From positions 310,001 through 374,000 of the forward strand of contig NZ_CALPCP010000001.1 in NCBI RefSeq assembly GCF_943192995.1: 64,000 nt of DNA, written 5' to 3'. Numbering within the stretch: the first letter of the stretch is position 1; each line of letters begins with the position of its first letter. A model generated the notes under the pieces. The model saw nothing but the letters and a program-made list of their open reading frames with translations. It searched no databases and was not told the origin of the DNA. The translations under genes and the position numbers were made by a program. This DNA comes from Flintibacter muris. Lineage in GTDB: Bacteria > Bacillota > Clostridia > Oscillospirales > Oscillospiraceae. Of the stretch, positions 7,327 to 29,135 are shown one piece after another.

Positions 7327-7390
7327 CTTTTCTTATGAATTTTTCCCTTCAAAATTTAGAGTGGTAAAGCGAGATTTTTCATGAAAAAAG

Positions 7391-22288: not shown

Positions 22289-22354
22289 AGATGACGCGCC
22301 TCCTTGTTTTTTCTCTATTATGCCAGATGAACGGGGAATTGTAAAGCGCCCCGC

Positions 22355-22381
22355 ACCGATCAGGGCCGCCGACATAGTATG
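22355..22381 (+). promoter_or_regulatory. Mother-cell sigma (E/K)-like promoter upstream of the collagen-like gene
   Basis: AC (22355-22356), 16-base spacer, CATAGTATG (22373-22381), near the sigma-K pattern AC-N16-CATANNNTA. No sigma-A hexamer pair is evident in this gap. A short stem TGTGGC/GCCACA follows. The match is partial, so this is a suggestion. Confidence 0.35.
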
Positions 22382-22428
22382 GTATGTGGCACCGCCACAT
22401 CCACTACTTTGAATTGAAGGAGTGCGTT

Positions 22429-22908
22429 ATGAATCGATACTATGCTTCTGACTGGGAGCAGAGCAGTCAGAACGGCGTTGTGGCCCGGCTGACCGGGTGC
22501 AGCACCGGCTGCGGCTGCAACACCGGGTGCAGCACCGGCTGCGGCTGCAACACCGGCTGCAACACCGGCTGCGGCTGTAACACCGGCTGCAACACTGGCT
22601 GCGGCTGCAACACCGGCTGCAACACCGGCTGCTCTACGCCTACGCTGCCCCCTGTACCTCCCTGTCCGGGTCCTGGACCCAGCCCCTTCCCGCCCTGTCC
22701 CGGAACCGGCCCCACCGGTCCCACTGGTCCCCAGGGTTACCCCGGTCCTGAAGGTCCCACAGGCGGCCTTGGGTTAGTACGGCTGATTCCGAAAAATAAC
22801 ACGGGGCAGGTTGTCCCCATCCAGACGAATCTCCCGAATGATACCGTACCAGAAGTCCCGGCGGCGCGCCCGGTCCAAGGCGGCGTAAATTGGACCAAAG
22901 CCGCCTGA
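22429..22908 (+). CDS. Collagen-like protein, 5' part of an interrupted gene
   Basis: The ATG at 22429 has GAAGGAG upstream. The real coding part runs to about 22763: a short start (MNRYYASDWEQ), a Cys-rich block of repeated GCNTGCG / GCSTGC units (about 24-68), a Pro-rich linker, and the first Gly-X-Y triplets ([19 protein letters not shown]). It then enters the inserted element and reads the recombinase gene in antisense to a stop at 22908, so an uninterrupted transcript would add about 48 foreign residues. The rest of the gene is at 27080-27943 in the same frame. Clustered Cys plus collagen repeats are typical of clostridial spore or surface fibres; location is inferred. Confidence 0.85.
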   Translation: MNRYYASDWEQSSQNGVVARLTGCSTGCGCNTGCSTGCGCNTGCNTGCGCNTGCNTGCGCNTGCNTGCSTPTLPPVPPCPGPGPSPFPPCPGTGPTGPTGPQGYPGPEGPTGGLGLVRLIPKNNTGQVVPIQTNLPNDTVPEVPAARPVQGGVNWTKAA

Positions 22909-24141
22909 CAGAAGCTCTTCCGGAAGCTGGGGGACGGGAGGAGGGGAGGCGGCTCCGCCGGCCTGCTGGAGCTGAAGGGAATATTTGGAATAGTCCTGCC
23001 GGTACTGCTCCAGGGTGATGAGTTCATTGACATACAGGTCCTTGAGGCGCTCCAGCCGGCGGCGGATGGTCCCCTGACCGGGCCCGGACCGCCGGGGCTG
23101 GACAGGCTCAACGCTCCAGAACAGCTCCCACCGGTCCAGCTCTTTGGCAAGCTGGAGGAGAAGCCACTGCTCCAGCCTGCTTTCGCTCATTTGCCGCCGG
23201 TGGGGGCAGCTGTGCTGGACGCAGGCGTTGCGGCAGCGGTACAGATAGTATTCTCGCCCGCCTGATGCGCTGTAGGACCCGGACATCCTGCGCCCGCAGC
23301 AGGCGCACCTCACCAGTCCGGAGAACAGGTAGACCCGCCCCACGGGGCTGCGGCGGATGGAGCGGGACTCCAGCTGCTTCTGGATGGCGTCGAACTCCTG
23401 GGGAGGGATGAGGGGCTGGCAGTAGCTGGGATTATCCCGATAGGCCCCCTTATACAGCGGATTGCGCAGCATGCGGCGGACGGTGTGGTCCTGGAGGAAC
23501 AGCCCGTAGGTATCCTGAATGTGGCGGGCGGCGGCGCCGGCGGAGCCGTGGGTGCGGTAGTGATGAAAGAGGGCCTGGGCGATGTCAGCCGTCTCCGGGT
23601 CGGGGACGACGTGCTTGTTTCGGATGGTCAGACCCAGGGGGAGGGAGCCGGTGATGACCTCGCCCCGAGCCACCTTGCTGTCAAAGACGAATTTGATGCG
23701 GTCGCTGTCCCGGTCGCTCTCGTCCTGGGCCACGGACAGGCGGATGTTGATGTACAGCCGGCCGTTGGTAGTCTCGGTGTCATAGTGCTCCTGGGTGGTC
23801 TTCCAGGCCACGTTGTGGGCGTCCAGAATTTCCTGGATCTTGTAGTAATCAGCCACACTGCGGAACCACCGGTCCAGCTTGATGAACAAGATTACGTCAA
23901 TCCTGCCCGCTTTCACGTCCTCCAGCATGCGCATGAATTCCTTCCGGTTGGCGTACTTTTTTCGGGCGCTCTTGCCCTCGTCAATGTAGCAGCCGGCCAC
24001 AGTGTAGCCGTTTTTTTTGGCAAATTCCTCCAGGTCCTCTCGCTGGGCGGGGAGGGAGTAGCCCTTTTTGGCCTGCTCCTCGGTGGAGACCCGGATGTAG
24101 AGCGCCGCCCGGCGGGGCCGGGCATCCTTTGTCTGAGACAT
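22774..24141 (-). CDS. Large serine recombinase
   Basis: 455 residues. N-terminal resolvase domain with catalytic Ser in YIRVSTEEQ (about 19) and the conserved Arg-rich DRWFRS region (about 88-93); recombinase domain with PLGLTIRNKHVVPD and RRMLRNPLYKGAY; zinc ribbon with CACCGRRM and CRNACVQHSC; then a C-terminal coiled-coil region that ends IIREIRLDGDNLP. This is the class that integrates and excises phages and sporulation-gene intervening elements. AAGGAGG ribosome site. The gene ends about 10 bases from the left junction, as is usual for integrases beside their att site. Confidence 0.93.
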   Translation of the reverse strand: MSQTKDARPRRAALYIRVSTEEQAKKGYSLPAQREDLEEFAKKNGYTVAGCYIDEGKSARKKYANRKEFMRMLEDVKAGRIDVILFIKLDRWFRSVADYYKIQEILDAHNVAWKTTQEHYDTETTNGRLYINIRLSVAQDESDRDSDRIKFVFDSKVARGEVITGSLPLGLTIRNKHVVPDPETADIAQALFHHYRTHGSAGAAARHIQDTYGLFLQDHTVRRMLRNPLYKGAYRDNPSYCQPLIPPQEFDAIQKQLESRSIRRSPVGRVYLFSGLVRCACCGRRMSGSYSASGGREYYLYRCRNACVQHSCPHRRQMSESRLEQWLLLQLAKELDRWELFWSVEPVQPRRSGPGQGTIRRRLERLKDLYVNELITLEQYRQDYSKYSLQLQQAGGAASPPPVPQLPEELLSGGFGPIYAALDRARRRDFWYGIIREIRLDGDNLPRVIFRNQPY

Positions 24142-24246
24142 GGCGATCCCTCCTTATACCTCAGGCTATGCGGCACGGGGAGAGGTTTATCCCTAAGCAT
24201 AAAAGGCGGGAGGCGGCCATAGGCTGTGGCGAAGGAGGCGGTCGGG

Positions 24247-24390
24247 ATGGAGGACGGCTGTGAGAACGGGCTGGATATTAGGCTGTATTGCGATACGCTG
24301 GCCTGGGTGCTGGAGGAACAGTATGGAGTGAAGCTGGTGTGTACCCCGCGGCCCAAAGCCAGGACCGGAGAGGAAACAGAGCAAATGTAA
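24247..24390 (+). CDS. Small protein of unknown function in the element
   Basis: 47 residues, ATG 24247 with AAGGAGG upstream. Sequence starts MEDGCENGLDIRLYC and contains DTLAWVLEEQYGVKLV, one helix plus a strand. It looks like short conserved proteins near phage tail-fibre genes, but the function is unknown. An overlapping upstream frame (24168-24263, Lys/Arg-rich, no clear ribosome site) is less likely. Confidence 0.55.
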   Translation: MEDGCENGLDIRLYCDTLAWVLEEQYGVKLVCTPRPKARTGEETEQM

Positions 24391-24421
24391 TCGGGCCGCA
24401 AGTTGTACGCGGGAGTGCAAC

Positions 24422-24466
24422 AAAACCTCCTTTCCCGGTATTTGTAGTACCAGGAAAGGAGGTTTT
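24422..24466 (+). promoter_or_regulatory. Hairpin that buries a ribosome site
   Basis: AAAACCTCCTTTCC (24422-24435) and GGAAAGGAGGTTTT (24453-24466) form a perfect 14-base stem with a 17-base loop. The right arm contains the AAGGAGG ribosome site of the 24471 gene and ends in TTTTT. It could act as a terminator and as a translation block. Confidence 0.75.
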
Positions 24467-24470
24467 TAGT

Positions 24471-25097
24471 ATGTTTATACTCTATGCGGACAAAAACCAG
24501 CTGACTGTCCGGCAGCGGGAGACAGTAACCAGCGGCTCGGTGGATGTATATCCGGTGCGGTTTGAGTTTTCGGAGGATTGGGACGGTCTGAGCCGTACCG
24601 CAGTGTTCCATGGGGGTGGGGAGAGCCGGTCCGTCCTGTTGGACGGAGGAGGGGAGACGACCATTCCCTGGGAGGTGCTGGAGGTTCCCGGCCGCCGCCT
24701 GCTGGCCGGTGTGCGGGGCACCCGGGGCGGAACGGAGGTTCTGCCCACTCTCTGGGTGGACCTGGGGCCCGTTTGGGAGGGAGCGGACACCGGCCAGCCC
24801 GCCCAGCCGCCCACCCCAGACCTGTGGGAGCAGAGGCTGGAATCCAGAGGCAGCGCTCTGCGGCGGGACGGACAGAATCTGTCGCTGATGTCGGGGGACA
24901 GGACGCTGTCCACCGTGCAGCTTCCAAAGGGAGAGATAAGCGTCCCCTACACCATCGGCCACGGGCTGAAACAGGAGGGGAACGTGGTAGCAGTGGACGC
25001 CGTAAGCGATTTTTCCGGCGACAACACCCTGCCCATCACCGCGGCGGCGGTACAGCTGGCCGTGGGAAATATTGAAGCTTTACTGGAGACAATTTAA
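24471..25097 (+). CDS. Phage tail/baseplate fibre-type protein
   Basis: 208 residues. The N-terminal domain (MFILYADKNQLTVRQRETVT ... VRFEFSEDWDGLSRTAVF ... TIPWEVL) is a beta-sandwich typical of baseplate or fibre adaptor proteins in Firmicutes prophages. The C-terminal part (IGHGLKQEGNVVAVDAVSDF ... PITAAAVQLAVGNIEALLETI) is a common shaft motif at the ends of phage fibres. Role inferred: part of a receptor-binding or surface-fibre assembly. First gene of a three-gene set; its ribosome site is buried in a hairpin. Confidence 0.7.
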   Translation: MFILYADKNQLTVRQRETVTSGSVDVYPVRFEFSEDWDGLSRTAVFHGGGESRSVLLDGGGETTIPWEVLEVPGRRLLAGVRGTRGGTEVLPTLWVDLGPVWEGADTGQPAQPPTPDLWEQRLESRGSALRRDGQNLSLMSGDRTLSTVQLPKGEISVPYTIGHGLKQEGNVVAVDAVSDFSGDNTLPITAAAVQLAVGNIEALLETI

Positions 25098-25110
25098 AGG
25101 AGGGAAAATT

Positions 25111-25689
25111 ATGAGTATCGCAGCTGAAATCAGCAGAATTCAGAGCGGCCGCAACACCATCCGGGCCAAGCTGGTGGAACTGGGCATGGCGCAGAACACT
25201 GACGGGCTGGACAAGCTGGCCGCCGCAGTAGAGGGGATGGAAAACCGGGGGGCCGTGTCCGTCACGGTTCAGGAGGGGGACACCTATACCATCCCCAAGG
25301 GCTACCACAATGGCAGCGGAACGGTTTCCGGCGTGTCCGGCGGCGGAAACTACGGCTTGCAGTCCAAGTCCGCCACCCCCACCAGGCTCCAGCAGAATAT
25401 TACCCCGGACGCGGGCTACTATGGCCTGTCTGACGTGACCGTGGCCCCCATCCCCGAGATGTATCAGGATGTGAGCACAGTCACCGCCGGGGCTGGGGAT
25501 GTGCTGACAGGGAAGATGATTGTGGACGCCGCGGGCAGGACCGTTGCCGGTGTGATGCCAAACAACGGGAAGATTACCGCTTCTATGGACGGCCTGACCA
25601 TCTCCAGTGTATCAATTCCCGCCGGTTACACTGCCGGAGGCACAGTGACCTTGAGCGGCGACATTGAGGACGCGCTGGCGGCGATCTGA
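25111..25689 (+). CDS. Phage-fibre-type protein
   Basis: 192 residues, ATG 25111 with AAAGGAGGG. Begins with a helix (MSIAAEISRIQSGRNTIRAK) and GLDKLAAAVEGM, then short beta repeats with YTIPKGYHNGSGTV, NITPDAGYYGLSDVTVAPIP and SVSIPAGYTAGGTVTL, ending IEDALAAI. These helix-plus-beta-repeat blocks recur in clostridial prophage tail proteins. No signal peptide. Thirteen bases from the previous stop. Confidence 0.65.
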   Translation: MSIAAEISRIQSGRNTIRAKLVELGMAQNTDGLDKLAAAVEGMENRGAVSVTVQEGDTYTIPKGYHNGSGTVSGVSGGGNYGLQSKSATPTRLQQNITPDAGYYGLSDVTVAPIPEMYQDVSTVTAGAGDVLTGKMIVDAAGRTVAGVMPNNGKITASMDGLTISSVSIPAGYTAGGTVTLSGDIEDALAAI

Positions 25690-25698
25690 GGTGAGGCC

Positions 25699-27048
25699 AT
25701 GAGTGTACACAGTGAGATTGACAGGATCAGGGAAAATATCGCCCAGGCTTACTCCGCCGTGGGGGACAGAGGGGGGACGCTGCCTGAGCAGCGAAACAGC
25801 GGGAATCTGGCTGAGGCCATCCGCAGTATTACCGGGGGCAAAACCGGCACAGAAGCGCCGGCCCCGGAGGAGGTCTACAGGACTGCCCGCCCGGCGAGCT
25901 GGCTGACAATCCCTGAGCCCGAAGACGACGAGATGTATCTGCTGGTCCATATTACAGACGGCTTGAGCACGCTGCTGGCCTTTACAGTGACCTGTTCTGG
26001 AAGCTATACTGTTGAGCTGGGCACCATCAGTGAAGGGGGCGTGTTCAGCGCGCTGTTCTCCACCGCCGCTGCCAGTGGAGATGTCTATGAGACGGAGCTG
26101 TTCGCCAGCGCATACGACGGCCTGACGGACAGCGGAATGAAGCAGGCGGTGGTCAGAATCACCGGGACCGATATTCTGACCTGGGAGCCCTCCGCCCACA
26201 GTGGGAAAACTGCGCCCCTCAATTTTTCCGGGTGGAATATTGTGGAAATCAAGTGCCGCCTGCCCAAAGGAACGGCGGTGCTCTGCGGGAACGGGACAAA
26301 AAACCGGGAGCTGAGAGGGCTCCGATTTTTTACCTGGGACGGGCCCGGCAGAGCGGCAAGTATGAGCGGTATGTTCAATAATTGCAGTGCCCTGACCGCC
26401 GTGTTAAAGCTGGATACCAGCGGCGTGACAGATATGAGCAATCTGTTCAACGGCTGCGCCTCCCTTACCGCCATTCCCGAGCTGAATACAGCGAATGTGA
26501 CAAATATGAACAGCATGTTCAAGGGCTGCGCCTCCCTTGCCGCAATTCCCCTGCTGGACACAGCCAAGGTGACGGATCTGGGTTATTTGTTCTCCGGATG
26601 TGCGCACCTTCTAAGCGTTCCACCGCTGGATACGTCGAAGGCGGCAAATATGACCAACATGTTCTACGGATGCAGCGCGATTGCGGCGGTTCCACCCTTG
26701 GATTGTACAGAGGCGACAGCTATGGGAAATATTTTTTCGGGCTGTTACGCACTGACTGATATTCCTGTGCTGAAGGTGGCCAAGGCGGCTTCTGTGGGCA
26801 GTATGTTTTATAACTGCCTCAGCCTGGGTGAGATCAGGTTTGACCCTGCAGTAACGGGGTGGACGGGAGGAGCCATATCGCTGCAAAACTGTTCTATGGG
26901 ACATGAGGCTCTGGTCCGCCTGCTGAACAGCCTGCCGGAGGTTACCACCGCCAGGATTCTTACGCTGACCGGAAACCCAGGCGCTGAGGAACTGACCGAA
27001 AGCGAAAAAGCTGTCGCAAATAGGAAGAACTGGACAGTGAAAGTGTAA
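25699..27048 (+). CDS. BspA-like (DUF285) repeat protein with phage-fibre N-terminus
   Basis: 449 residues. The start ([32 protein letters not shown]) matches the N-terminal helix of its neighbour, suggesting a shared attachment part. From about residue 215 there are six or seven repeats of the DUF285/BspA leucine-rich type ([48 protein letters not shown]), a protein-binding array. No signal peptide, so secretion or virion attachment is unexplained. Stop lies 32 bases before the right junction. Confidence 0.75.
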
Positions 27049-27079
27049 ATTCCAGTGTACTAATCACACCCCTCCTACC

Positions 27080-27943
27080 GGACCCACCGGTCCTCAGGGA
27101 ATTCCCGGCCCCGCCGGTCCTGCTGGTGCTACCGGTGCTACGGGCGCCACCGGCGCCCAGGGCCCCGCCGGTCCTGCTGGTCCTGCTGGTCCTACCGGCC
27201 CTGCCGGTGCCACAGGTGCTACAGGCGCCACCGGCGCCCAGGGTCCCACTGGTCCTGTTGGTGCTACTGGCGCTACAGGCGCCCAGGGCCCCACTGGCCC
27301 TGCTGGTGCTACTGGCGCTACAGGTGCCACCGGTGCCCAGGGTCCTGCCGGTCCTGTTGGTCCCACCGGGCCTGCCGGTGCCACAGGTGCCACAGGTGCT
27401 ACCGGTGCCCAGGGCCCCACTGGCCCTGCTGGTGCTACAGGCGCTACAGGCGCCACCGGTGCCCAGGGTCCTGCCGGTCCTGTTGGTCCCACCGGCCCTG
27501 CCGGTGCCACAGGTGCTACCGGTGCCCAGGGCCCCACTGGCCCTGCTGGTGCAGCTGGCGCTACAGGCGCCACCGGTGCCCAGGGTCCTGCCGGTCCTAC
27601 TGGTCCCACCGGCCCTGCCGGTGCCACAGGCGCTACAGGTGCCGCTGGTGCCCAGGGCCCCACTGGCCCTGCTGGTGCTACAGGCGCTACAGGCGCCACC
27701 GGTGCCCAGGGTCCTGTCGGTCCTACTGGTCCCACCGGCCCTGCCGGTCCTGCTGGCGCTGCCGGCGCCGCTGGTGCCGCTGGTGCTGAGGGTCCCACCG
27801 GTCCCACCGGCCCTGCTGGTCCTGCCATTACGCCTGGCCCTGCGGTGGCTAATCTGGATGGTGGGAGCGGAACCCCGGAGATTGTAGACAAGATCAATGA
27901 GCTGCTGGCCTCTTTGAGGACCGCCGGCGTGATTGCGACCTGA
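27080..27943 (+). CDS. Collagen-like protein, 3' part of the interrupted gene
   Basis: 288 codons open to TGA at 27941-27943, with no start codon of their own. The repeats are Gly-X-Y triplets rich in GPTGPAG, GATGAQ and GPVGPT, about 240 residues, then a short C-terminal block ([33 protein letters not shown]). The frame equals that of the 5' part: the join at CCCAC gives about 395 codons in total. The C-terminal helix is like the tail of collagen-like surface or fibre proteins in Clostridia. Without excision it lacks its start and should not be translated. Confidence 0.85.
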
Positions 27944-28004: not shown

Positions 28005-29135
28005 ATGGGGAAGTACAACATATGTGTTTATGCGATCTGCAAAAACGAGGAGCAGTTTGCGGACCGGTGGATGGACTCCATGCTGGAGGCGGACCGTGTG
28101 GTGGTGCTGGACACCGGCTCTGACGACAGGACAGTGGAGCGGCTGCGGGCTCGGGGAGCGGAGGTGACGGCAGAGACCATCACGCCCTGGCGCTTTGACA
28201 CGGCCCGGAACCGCTCCTTGGAGCTGGTGCCCCAGGATACAGATATCTGCGTCTGCACCGACCTGGACGAGGTATTCCATCCCGGCTGGCGCAAGGAGCT
28301 GGAAAAGGTCTGGGTGCCGGGGGCGGGACAGGCCTCCTACCGGTATACATGGTCCTTTAACGCCGACGGCTCCGAGGGCGTGGTATTCTGGTATGAGAAG
28401 ATCCACGCCCGTCACGGCTACCAGTGGGTCCATCCGGTCCACGAGGTGCTGAAATGGGTGGGGGAAGGGAGCCCTGGACCTATGGTGACGGCAGAAAACG
28501 TCCAGCTGGACCACCACCCAGACCCGGCCAAGTCCCGGAGCCAGTATCTGCCCCTTCTGGAGCTGTCTGTTCAGGAGGAGCCGGGAGACGACCGCAATGT
28601 CCACTACCTTGGCCGGGAGTATATGTACAAGGGCCGCTGGGATGACTGCATCCGAACTCTGAAGGGACATCTGGCCATGCCCACCGCCGTGTGGCGGGAC
28701 GAGCGGGCGGCCTCAATGCGGTATATTGCAAAATCCTGCTGGGAGAAGGGGGACCCGGCCCAGGCCAGGGACTGGTACCTCCGGGCCATTACCGAGGCCC
28801 CCCATCTGCGGGAGCCTTACACCGACCTGGCCCTCATGCTCTATCAGCAGGGGGAGTGGGAAGGGGTGCTCTACTTTACCGCCTGCGCCCTGGCCATTAC
28901 GGTACGTCCCCGGAGCTACATCTGTGAAGCCGCCGCCTGGGGCAGCCTGCCCCACGATCTGATGGCTATGGCCTTTTACTACACCGGAGCTTACAAAGAA
29001 GCGGCGGAGGAGGCGAGGAAGGCGTTGGCACTGGAACCGGGCAGCGAACGGCTGAAAAGCAACCTGGAGATTATGGAACAGGCCGCAAGAGGGCAGGAGA
29101 ATGGCCTCCGTTCAGGCTCAGCCGCTCCGCAGTAA
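28005..29135 (+). CDS. GT2 glycosyltransferase with TPR domain
   Basis: 376 residues. GT-A fold start NICVYAICKNEEQFADRWMD, then VLDTGSDDRTVE and the metal-binding acidic motif CTDLDEVF (about 85-92); His-rich VHPVHEVLKW follows. From about 190 the protein is helical TPR-like (NVHYLGREYMYKGRWDD, WYLRAITEAPHLREPYTDLA). Such enzymes sit beside collagen-like or tail-fibre genes and are proposed to glycosylate Thr in Gly-X-Thr repeats; that target is inference. AAGGAGG ribosome site; likely co-transcribed with the collagen gene once restored. Confidence 0.82.
   Translation: MGKYNICVYAICKNEEQFADRWMDSMLEADRVVVLDTGSDDRTVERLRARGAEVTAETITPWRFDTARNRSLELVPQDTDICVCTDLDEVFHPGWRKELEKVWVPGAGQASYRYTWSFNADGSEGVVFWYEKIHARHGYQWVHPVHEVLKWVGEGSPGPMVTAENVQLDHHPDPAKSRSQYLPLLELSVQEEPGDDRNVHYLGREYMYKGRWDDCIRTLKGHLAMPTAVWRDERAASMRYIAKSCWEKGDPAQARDWYLRAITEAPHLREPYTDLALMLYQQGEWEGVLYFTACALAITVRPRSYICEAAAWGSLPHDLMAMAFYYTGAYKEAAEEARKALALEPGSERLKSNLEIMEQAARGQENGLRSGSAAPQ

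Follow-up and report, generated by a model that had tools for sequence, protein, structure and literature searches.

How did a gene for a collagen-like protein in Flintibacter muris come to be cut in two by a mobile element, and might the cut be undone when the cell sporulates? The window analysed here is a stretch of 64,000 nucleotides (nt), positions 310001-374000 of contig C1 in host genome G000 (4.52 Mb, 126 contigs), and within it the collagen-like gene is interrupted by a 4,318-bp serine-integrase element at window positions 22761-27078. This structural reading is nearly certain. We further consider it likely, from features of the sequence, that the element is excised as a programmed event in the mother cell, in the manner of skin and SPbeta, with a new kind of target. 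An earlier, sequence-only reading of this DNA had proposed a programmed gene rearrangement at this place, and that proposal stands as a supported candidate. The principal features are as follows (aa, amino acids; ORF, open reading frame).

22429-22760, plus strand: 5′ part of the collagen-like gene (Cys-rich block and first Gly-X-Y triplets), with its ATG at 22429 and its end at the crossover
22753-22786: attL, with the crossover AC at 22759-22760 and the element arm GTAC at 22777-22780
22774-24141, minus strand: large serine recombinase of 455 aa, with Pfam Resolvase, Recombinase and zinc-ribbon domains, aligned with five relatives
24247-24390, plus strand: small ORF of 47 aa, with relatives in related phages, reading away from the left edge
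27051-27081: attR, with the element arm GTAC at 27057-27060 and the crossover AC at 27077-27078
27079-27943, plus strand: 3′ part of the collagen-like gene (Gly-X-Y repeats and C-terminal tail), PF01391

The 5′ part breaks off after GGT CCC AC at 22760, and the 3′ part stays open in the collagen frame until the TGA at 27941-27943, over 288 codons including the stop; in that frame of the 3′ part, the ORF list has no entry of at least 60 aa with a start codon. The Gly-X-Y repeats pass the Pfam cut-off for PF01391 (134.1 bits against 27.2). The recombinase gene reads toward the left edge and ends 13 bases from the left crossover. The sequence-only reading had described this layout correctly: a locus spanning 22429-27943, one frame on both sides of the insert, 288 open 3′ codons and a recombinase gene ending at the left edge.

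The crossover and the rejoined gene

At which bases would the element leave? We place the crossover at the central AC, 22759-22760 on the left and 27077-27078 on the right. The attP site rebuilt from the two edges is GTAC-N16-AC-N16-GTAC, in which GTAC stands exactly 16 nt from the central AC on both sides. We compared 17 loci encoding related integrases (five of the eight from a first search and all 12 of a second; three loci at 26-28% integrase identity were left out). In 8 of the 17, a whole attP of the form GTAC-N16-NN-N16-GTAC adjoins the integrase, with AC, AT or GT at its centre. This match to phage attP sites was the deciding evidence for accepting the AC core. The window site, a quasi-symmetric attP with a central dinucleotide and with attL and attR at the element edges, has the form that defines the large serine recombinase class. 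Its arms are complementary at 14/24 positions, a value reached by 0.12% of 20,000 shuffles; in free scoring, the out-of-frame core CC also attained 14/24, and AC was ahead only by core-flank identity (6/8 against 2/8). Two of the loci, L158 and L169, have identical attP arms and differ in the central dinucleotide, which is AC in one and AT, a palindrome, in the other.

A half site was found in another 8 of the 17. Those of L005, L006, L163 and L164 continue into the collagen-like gene, unlike those of L008, L166, L167 and L168; in L007, GTAC is missing from the expected place, yet its integrase abuts a different collagen-like gene. In L166, where the match ends at 7368, a more distant relative of the integrase (57%) abuts a short lipoprotein-like ORF and not a collagen gene. 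L164, which is integrated, and L165, which has a whole attP, share 99.9% identity across 1,867 bp and diverge at the core, L164 into the collagen gene and L165 into a second phage arm. L163 is inverted: the edge with the integrase adjoins the 3′ part of the gene, and the core is a palindromic AT.

Joining the two parts at AC gives 1,197 nt, encoding 398 aa plus the stop, in frame, and the predicted junction reads GGTCCCAC up to the join and CGGACC after it. Precise excision is thus computed to restore the reading frame of the intact gene, in agreement with all six uninterrupted orthologues compared, with which the rejoined sequence aligns free of gaps over a 19-residue stretch. The sequence-only reading had also obtained an in-frame join, of 1,188 nt, by pairing GGTCCCACAGG on the left with GGACCCACCGG (27080-27090) on the right. 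We rejected that right-hand core, which lies nine bases off: the better partner is CCTCCT[AC]CGG at 27071-27081, the AC core gives the phage-type attP geometry, and the earlier join fits the six orthologues less well, lacking one Gly-X-Y triplet that all of them have. Among the findings that the same reading had named as speaking against it were the lack of any relative with an intact joined gene and a join out of frame at the real att core. Uninterrupted orthologues exist, and the corrected join is in frame.

Recurrence across the genus

Is the split peculiar to one genome? Of 64 genomes searched within the genus, 56 gave a match to a conserved neighbour gene (the stretches beside it were read for 20 of its 57 matches) and 35 to the C-terminal tail of the collagen-like protein. 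We classed the 24 genomes with a tail E-value up to 2e-15 and left the other 11, with weaker tails, unclassed. The gene is split in 10 of the 24 (G000, G403, G452, G426, G412, G445, G370, G414, G418 and G443; G418 and G443 were classed from the right edge only, and in G403, G452, G414 and G426 the edges lie on separate contigs), uninterrupted in seven (G446, G416, G422, G453, G442, G413 and G310), and runs off the end of its contig in seven (G419, G396, G402, G447, G439, G440 and G404). The split share among resolvable genomes is therefore 10/17, by at least two integrase types. G421, a weaker-tail genome outside the classed set, also has an uninterrupted frame.

A window-like integrase (type A) lies near the start of the repeats in G000, G403 and G452. 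A second kind (type B) lies later in the repeats, where its gene was read in G426, G412, G445 and G370 (541-563 aa); judging from edge sequence, type B is probably also present in G414, G418, G443 and on the 3′ side of G452. Related integrases split the same gene in G403 (taken as the genome of L006), in G452 (taken as that of L005) and in the viral contigs L163 and L164. G452 has two different edges, one of type A and a type-B-like one on the 3′ side (the middle piece between them was looked for and not found). In G426, two type-B-like edges enclose a middle piece, and in G370 the 3.7-kb element is followed by another insert, which is phage-like. The single-contig genome G370 also has two collagen tails that agree in their translation and in a 100-base edge (C1:11937-12308 and C1:116296-116667; L147 and L150).

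For six edge pairs (window, G403, G445, G370, G412 and G414), recombination at AC within a Gly-Pro-Thr codon restores a perfect in-frame Gly-X-Y series. By symmetry score, AC ranks outright first in G412 and G414, ties for first in the window (14, with CC) and in G445 (17/24, with the out-of-frame CG, identity breaking the tie), and ranks third in G403 and G370 (15 against 16 in each). Recombination of type B at CG, which would leave the gene out of frame, was dropped in favour of AC in Gly-Pro-Thr, which restores the frame. In the second element of G426, AC fell outside the three best cores, and this pair was left out of the count.

Could the split be an artefact, in which repeat-rich collagen fragments were misjoined around a phage fragment during assembly? 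Collagen repeats do break assemblies, and the tail contig ends within the gene in the seven genomes listed above. However, the arms at the two edges of the window element together restore an attP of the phage type, the neighbours on both flanks are conserved in relatives, and splits of this kind recur in other genomes; we give this explanation almost no credence.

Why should this gene be entered so often? The codons for Gly-Pro-Thr-Gly-Pro (GGN CCN ACN GGN CCN) read GGNCCNACNGGNCC, nearly symmetric around AC, and the rejoined gene contains 18 sites of this type; of the 19 such sites on the plus strand of the 64-kb window, 17 fall inside it, as do all three on the minus strand. Because these codons are near-palindromic around AC, a shape that serine integrases favour, the collagen-like spore gene would present a row of ready landing pads, and the codons may thereby steer integrases to it. 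This agrees with the discussion of the symmetric spsM site in PMC5595907.

Has the split been maintained? In G445 and G370 (L074 and L075), a type-B element occupies one shared position, its edges 3,685 bp apart in both genomes, and it comprises a methyl-accepting chemotaxis-like gene (recognised by eye), a short ORF and the type-B recombinase. Synonymous divergence (dS) between the two genomes is 0.15 and 0.23 for the element genes and 0.16, 0.23 and 0.29 for three neighbours, one of these values coming from 35 codons only; the ratio of nonsynonymous to synonymous divergence (dN/dS) of the recombinase is 0.145. Because the element has diverged like its neighbours and the recombinase has this low ratio, the comparison suggests that the split predates the two species and that recombinase function has been conserved, which is no proof of excision.

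These data bear on a rival explanation, namely that the element is an ordinary decaying prophage, a dispensable collagen gene having served phages as attB and the remnant, now unable to excise, having knocked it out. Related phages with a whole attP do exist, the window copy has been stripped of nearly all phage genes, the assembly contains no excised form, and 29 of the 64 genomes have no tail match, though many of these are incomplete or divergent. Against decay, the recombinase and the small protein are both retained as open frames, each with a ribosome site resembling GGAGG (by eye), the 288 codons of the 3′ part are still clean, and the 3.7-kb element shared by G445 and G370, in which no phage gene was seen, has the neighbour-like dS and the recombinase dN/dS just given. 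We regard decay as unlikely.

Predicted sporulation control of the gene and the element

When would the element be excised? Promoter-like motifs point to sporulation.

22355-22380, plus strand: sigma-K-type promoter motif of the collagen-like gene, AC-N16-CATAGTAT
24163-24190, minus strand: sigma-E-type motif before the recombinase, ATA-N17-CATAGCCT (strict pattern; absent before the recombinase of nine relatives)
24199-24225, plus strand: sigma-E-type motif before the small ORF, ATA-N16-CATAGGCT (at the same place in related loci)

The motif consensus is that of Bacillus and Clostridioides difficile, and we infer that it applies in this genus. In C. difficile, the sigma-E and sigma-K -10 elements are alike and the -35 element is ATA for sigma-E or AC for sigma-K (PMC3789822). 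The sigma-K-type motif lies ahead of all 24 orthologues read, as AC-N16-CATAGnAT in 23 and with AC-N17 in one, and the spacer varies; the pattern AC-N16/17-CATAnnnT has a single match in window 22301-27300, where shuffles expect 0.53. An inverted repeat, TGTGGC..GCCACA, lies between this motif and the start codon (window 22381-22428), as in many orthologues (by eye). Both sigma-E-type motifs of the window lie in one divergent gap, and the loose pattern is expected 0.14 times in the whole 5 kb. Ahead of the small ORF, the strict pattern ATA-N16/17-CATAnnnT was found in 7/9 loci and a relaxed one, (C/A)ATA, in 9/9, always 48-49 nt before the start, against a background of about 0.006 per 70 nt with the hits included. 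These motifs suggest that the target gene may be under mother-cell sporulation control and that the predicted promoters of the gene and the element may be used. The guess of the sequence-only reading that the protein belongs to the spore surface and the excision to the mother cell has thereby gained support.

Is the element equipped for excision? The recombinase matches PF00239, PF07508 and PF13408, all above cut-off, and the integrase family phrog_95 at 4e-105. The motif YIRVS is invariant across six aligned recombinases, and we take its serine to be the catalytic one. A genome search revealed no second recombinase copy of near similarity. Against XisF, the excision recombinase of the fdxN element, it scores 141 bits, below the NCBIfam equivalog cut-off of 375. 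In a phage collection, the integrase has 26 matches with E-values of 1e-40 or lower, the best of which shares 37% identity with it.

A profile made from seven sequences of this family detected relatives of the 47-aa protein in L004, L005, L006, L158, L160, L161, L162, L163 and L164; those in L008 and L166-L168 are diverged. None was found in L007, L159, L165 and L169, where no more than 4.1 kb lies before the integrase. A scan of viral contigs for further relatives gave four loci, of which two were already in the set, L192 ends before any integrase, and L194 was rejected as probably a chance match. The 47-aa protein is a candidate recombination directionality factor.

We propose that a small, shrunken prophage landed in a sigma-K-controlled, mother-cell gene for a collagen-like spore-surface protein, and that it may now be a natural minimal excision cassette, in which attL and attR enclose the recombinase, the 47-aa protein, probably its directionality factor, and three cargo genes. 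Sigma-E would switch on the small factor in the mother cell and, in the window, the recombinase as well; attL and attR would then recombine at AC, a 4.3-kb circle would be released, and the rejoined 398-aa gene would be transcribed from its sigma-K-type promoter. The element would stay in the chromosome of the spore. The cargo and the gene next to the collagen-like gene are as follows.

24471-25097, plus strand: 208-aa phage-type protein, function unassigned (phrog_19695)
25111-25689, plus strand: 192-aa phage-type protein, function unassigned (phrog_13589)
25699-27048, plus strand: 449-aa DUF285/BspA-type repeat protein
28005-29135, plus strand: glycosyltransferase-2 and TPR gene directly 3′ of the collagen-like gene, recognised by its domains, with homologues in relatives

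A homologue of the glycosyltransferase gene follows the collagen 3′ part in 28 of 29 other tail loci (L088-L116).

Several observations weigh against programmed excision. An in-frame join proves little by itself, because any precise excision restores the gene as it was before insertion. The empty site and the circle junction are absent from the assembly, as judged by one exact pattern each in one assembly, which is uninformative on sporulating cells. The relaxation to (C/A)ATA was introduced after the two strict misses were known, and the nine loci amount to fewer than nine independent promoter cases because L158, L161 and L163 are near-identical. With sigK as a positive control in three genomes, the relaxed sigma-E-type motif was found in 3/3 and the strict one in 0/3. 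No sigma-E-type motif precedes the recombinase in any of nine relatives, in five of which a sigma-A-like pattern does, and a search of the type-B mini-elements of G445 and G370 gave neither a sigma-E- nor a sigma-K-type motif. The 47-aa protein has no match of known function and is 28-40% identical to six aligned relatives; searched as a single sequence, it retrieved L164, L006, L004, L160, L005, L161 and L162 at E 9e-8 to 0.0096.

Some of these points would suit excision that is real and unprogrammed, a low-frequency movement in growing cells that gives phase variation of the fibre instead of a sporulation switch. Metagenome contigs contain integrated and whole-attP forms of one phage family, and the patterns before the relatives' recombinases, as just described, speak for the same idea. 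It is opposed by the sigma-E-type motif before the small factor, by the sigma-K-type motif before every orthologue of the target, and by descriptions of phage serine recombinases as requiring a factor for excision (PMC5595907; PMC5025042). We consider it improbable, and excision during sporulation remains our preferred account.

Does the genus possess the sporulation machinery, and is its sigK also interrupted? The Spo0A domain was found in 8/8 genomes searched, and SigE lies above cut-off in G000. The strict SigK cut-off of TIGR02846 was passed by none of the 8 genomes and none of 14 control genomes; in G000, the SigK-type gene does reach the threshold of the subfamily model NF004471. This gene is in two pieces, C25:19893-20540 and C78:3844-3906 (L176, L179 and L186). 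It ends at YVSR on C25 and resumes as IEKKALEKL on C78, the halves join in frame, and the pieces have att-like edges with serine recombinases on both contigs. In G370, the sigK matches lie 22 kb apart (C1:883325-883804 and 906052-906243; L180 and L181), one of them near a serine recombinase motif, and the break, at about profile position 65, is elsewhere in the gene than that of G000. Skin-like interruptions of sigK thus appear to have more than one position in the genus.

Tentatively, and with somewhat less than even confidence, we suggest a broader view: that unrelated phages and mobile elements repeatedly land in the collagen-like spore gene and become mother-cell switches, such that the finished fibre can need at least one excision beyond the one that rebuilds sigK.

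Comparison with known systems

If programmed excision is correct, gene rearrangement would be recurrent in a gut-bacterial genus and would act on a spore-surface gene, beyond the handful of Bacillus and Clostridium cases; the element would be a natural minimal cassette of one recombinase and one 47-aa factor; and the coding sequence of the target would itself explain why integrases prefer this gene. It would also open a new family of candidate directionality factors to testing. Among the matches listed in our literature search, whose coverage lay outside most subscription journals, we found no report of a prophage in a collagen-like sporulation gene.

The class for comparison is that of sporulation gene-intervening elements (skin, SPbeta, gin, vfbin and yin). 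SPbeta in spsM of Bacillus subtilis resembles the window element in having a serine recombinase and a small factor and in lying inside a spore-envelope gene, and SprA and SprB (58 aa) are enough for its excision during sporulation, as an SPbeta reduced to sprA and sprB shows (PMC4191935). It differs in that its target is needed for spore polysaccharide, it is a full phage and its excision has been demonstrated, whereas the window target is collagen-like and its excision is predicted. The skin element in sigK of C. difficile (CD1231/CD1234) likewise occupies a mother-cell gene and has a small factor under sigma-E, CD1234 (72 aa; PMC5025042), as the motif suggests for the window. It differs in target and integrase, and the window target is predicted to act downstream of sigma-K, with sigK split separately. 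The 47-aa protein, with its sigma-E-type motif, resembles these excision factors, SprB and CD1234.

The gin element in gerE of Bacillus cereus also relies on a serine recombinase, GirC, and an additional factor, GirX (PMC5595907); it measures 28.6 kb with three recombinases and is described as having no phage-related genes, whereas the window element has 4.3 kb, one recombinase and phage-type cargo. As for the product, BclA-type exosporium glycoproteins share the collagen repeats, and bclA1-3 of C. difficile are under sigma-K control (PMC3789822), which is paralleled here by the sigma-K-type motif and the glycosyltransferase gene alongside; the window protein differs in its Cys-rich N-terminus and its own C-terminal tail, and its location on the spore surface is predicted. 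Finally, yin in yabG of Clostridium botulinum is a prophage-like element in a sigma-K-regulated gene and has been seen both integrated and circular (PMC10747680). That element was reported from one isolate, whereas the collagen-like gene described here is split in at least 10 genomes by two integrase types.

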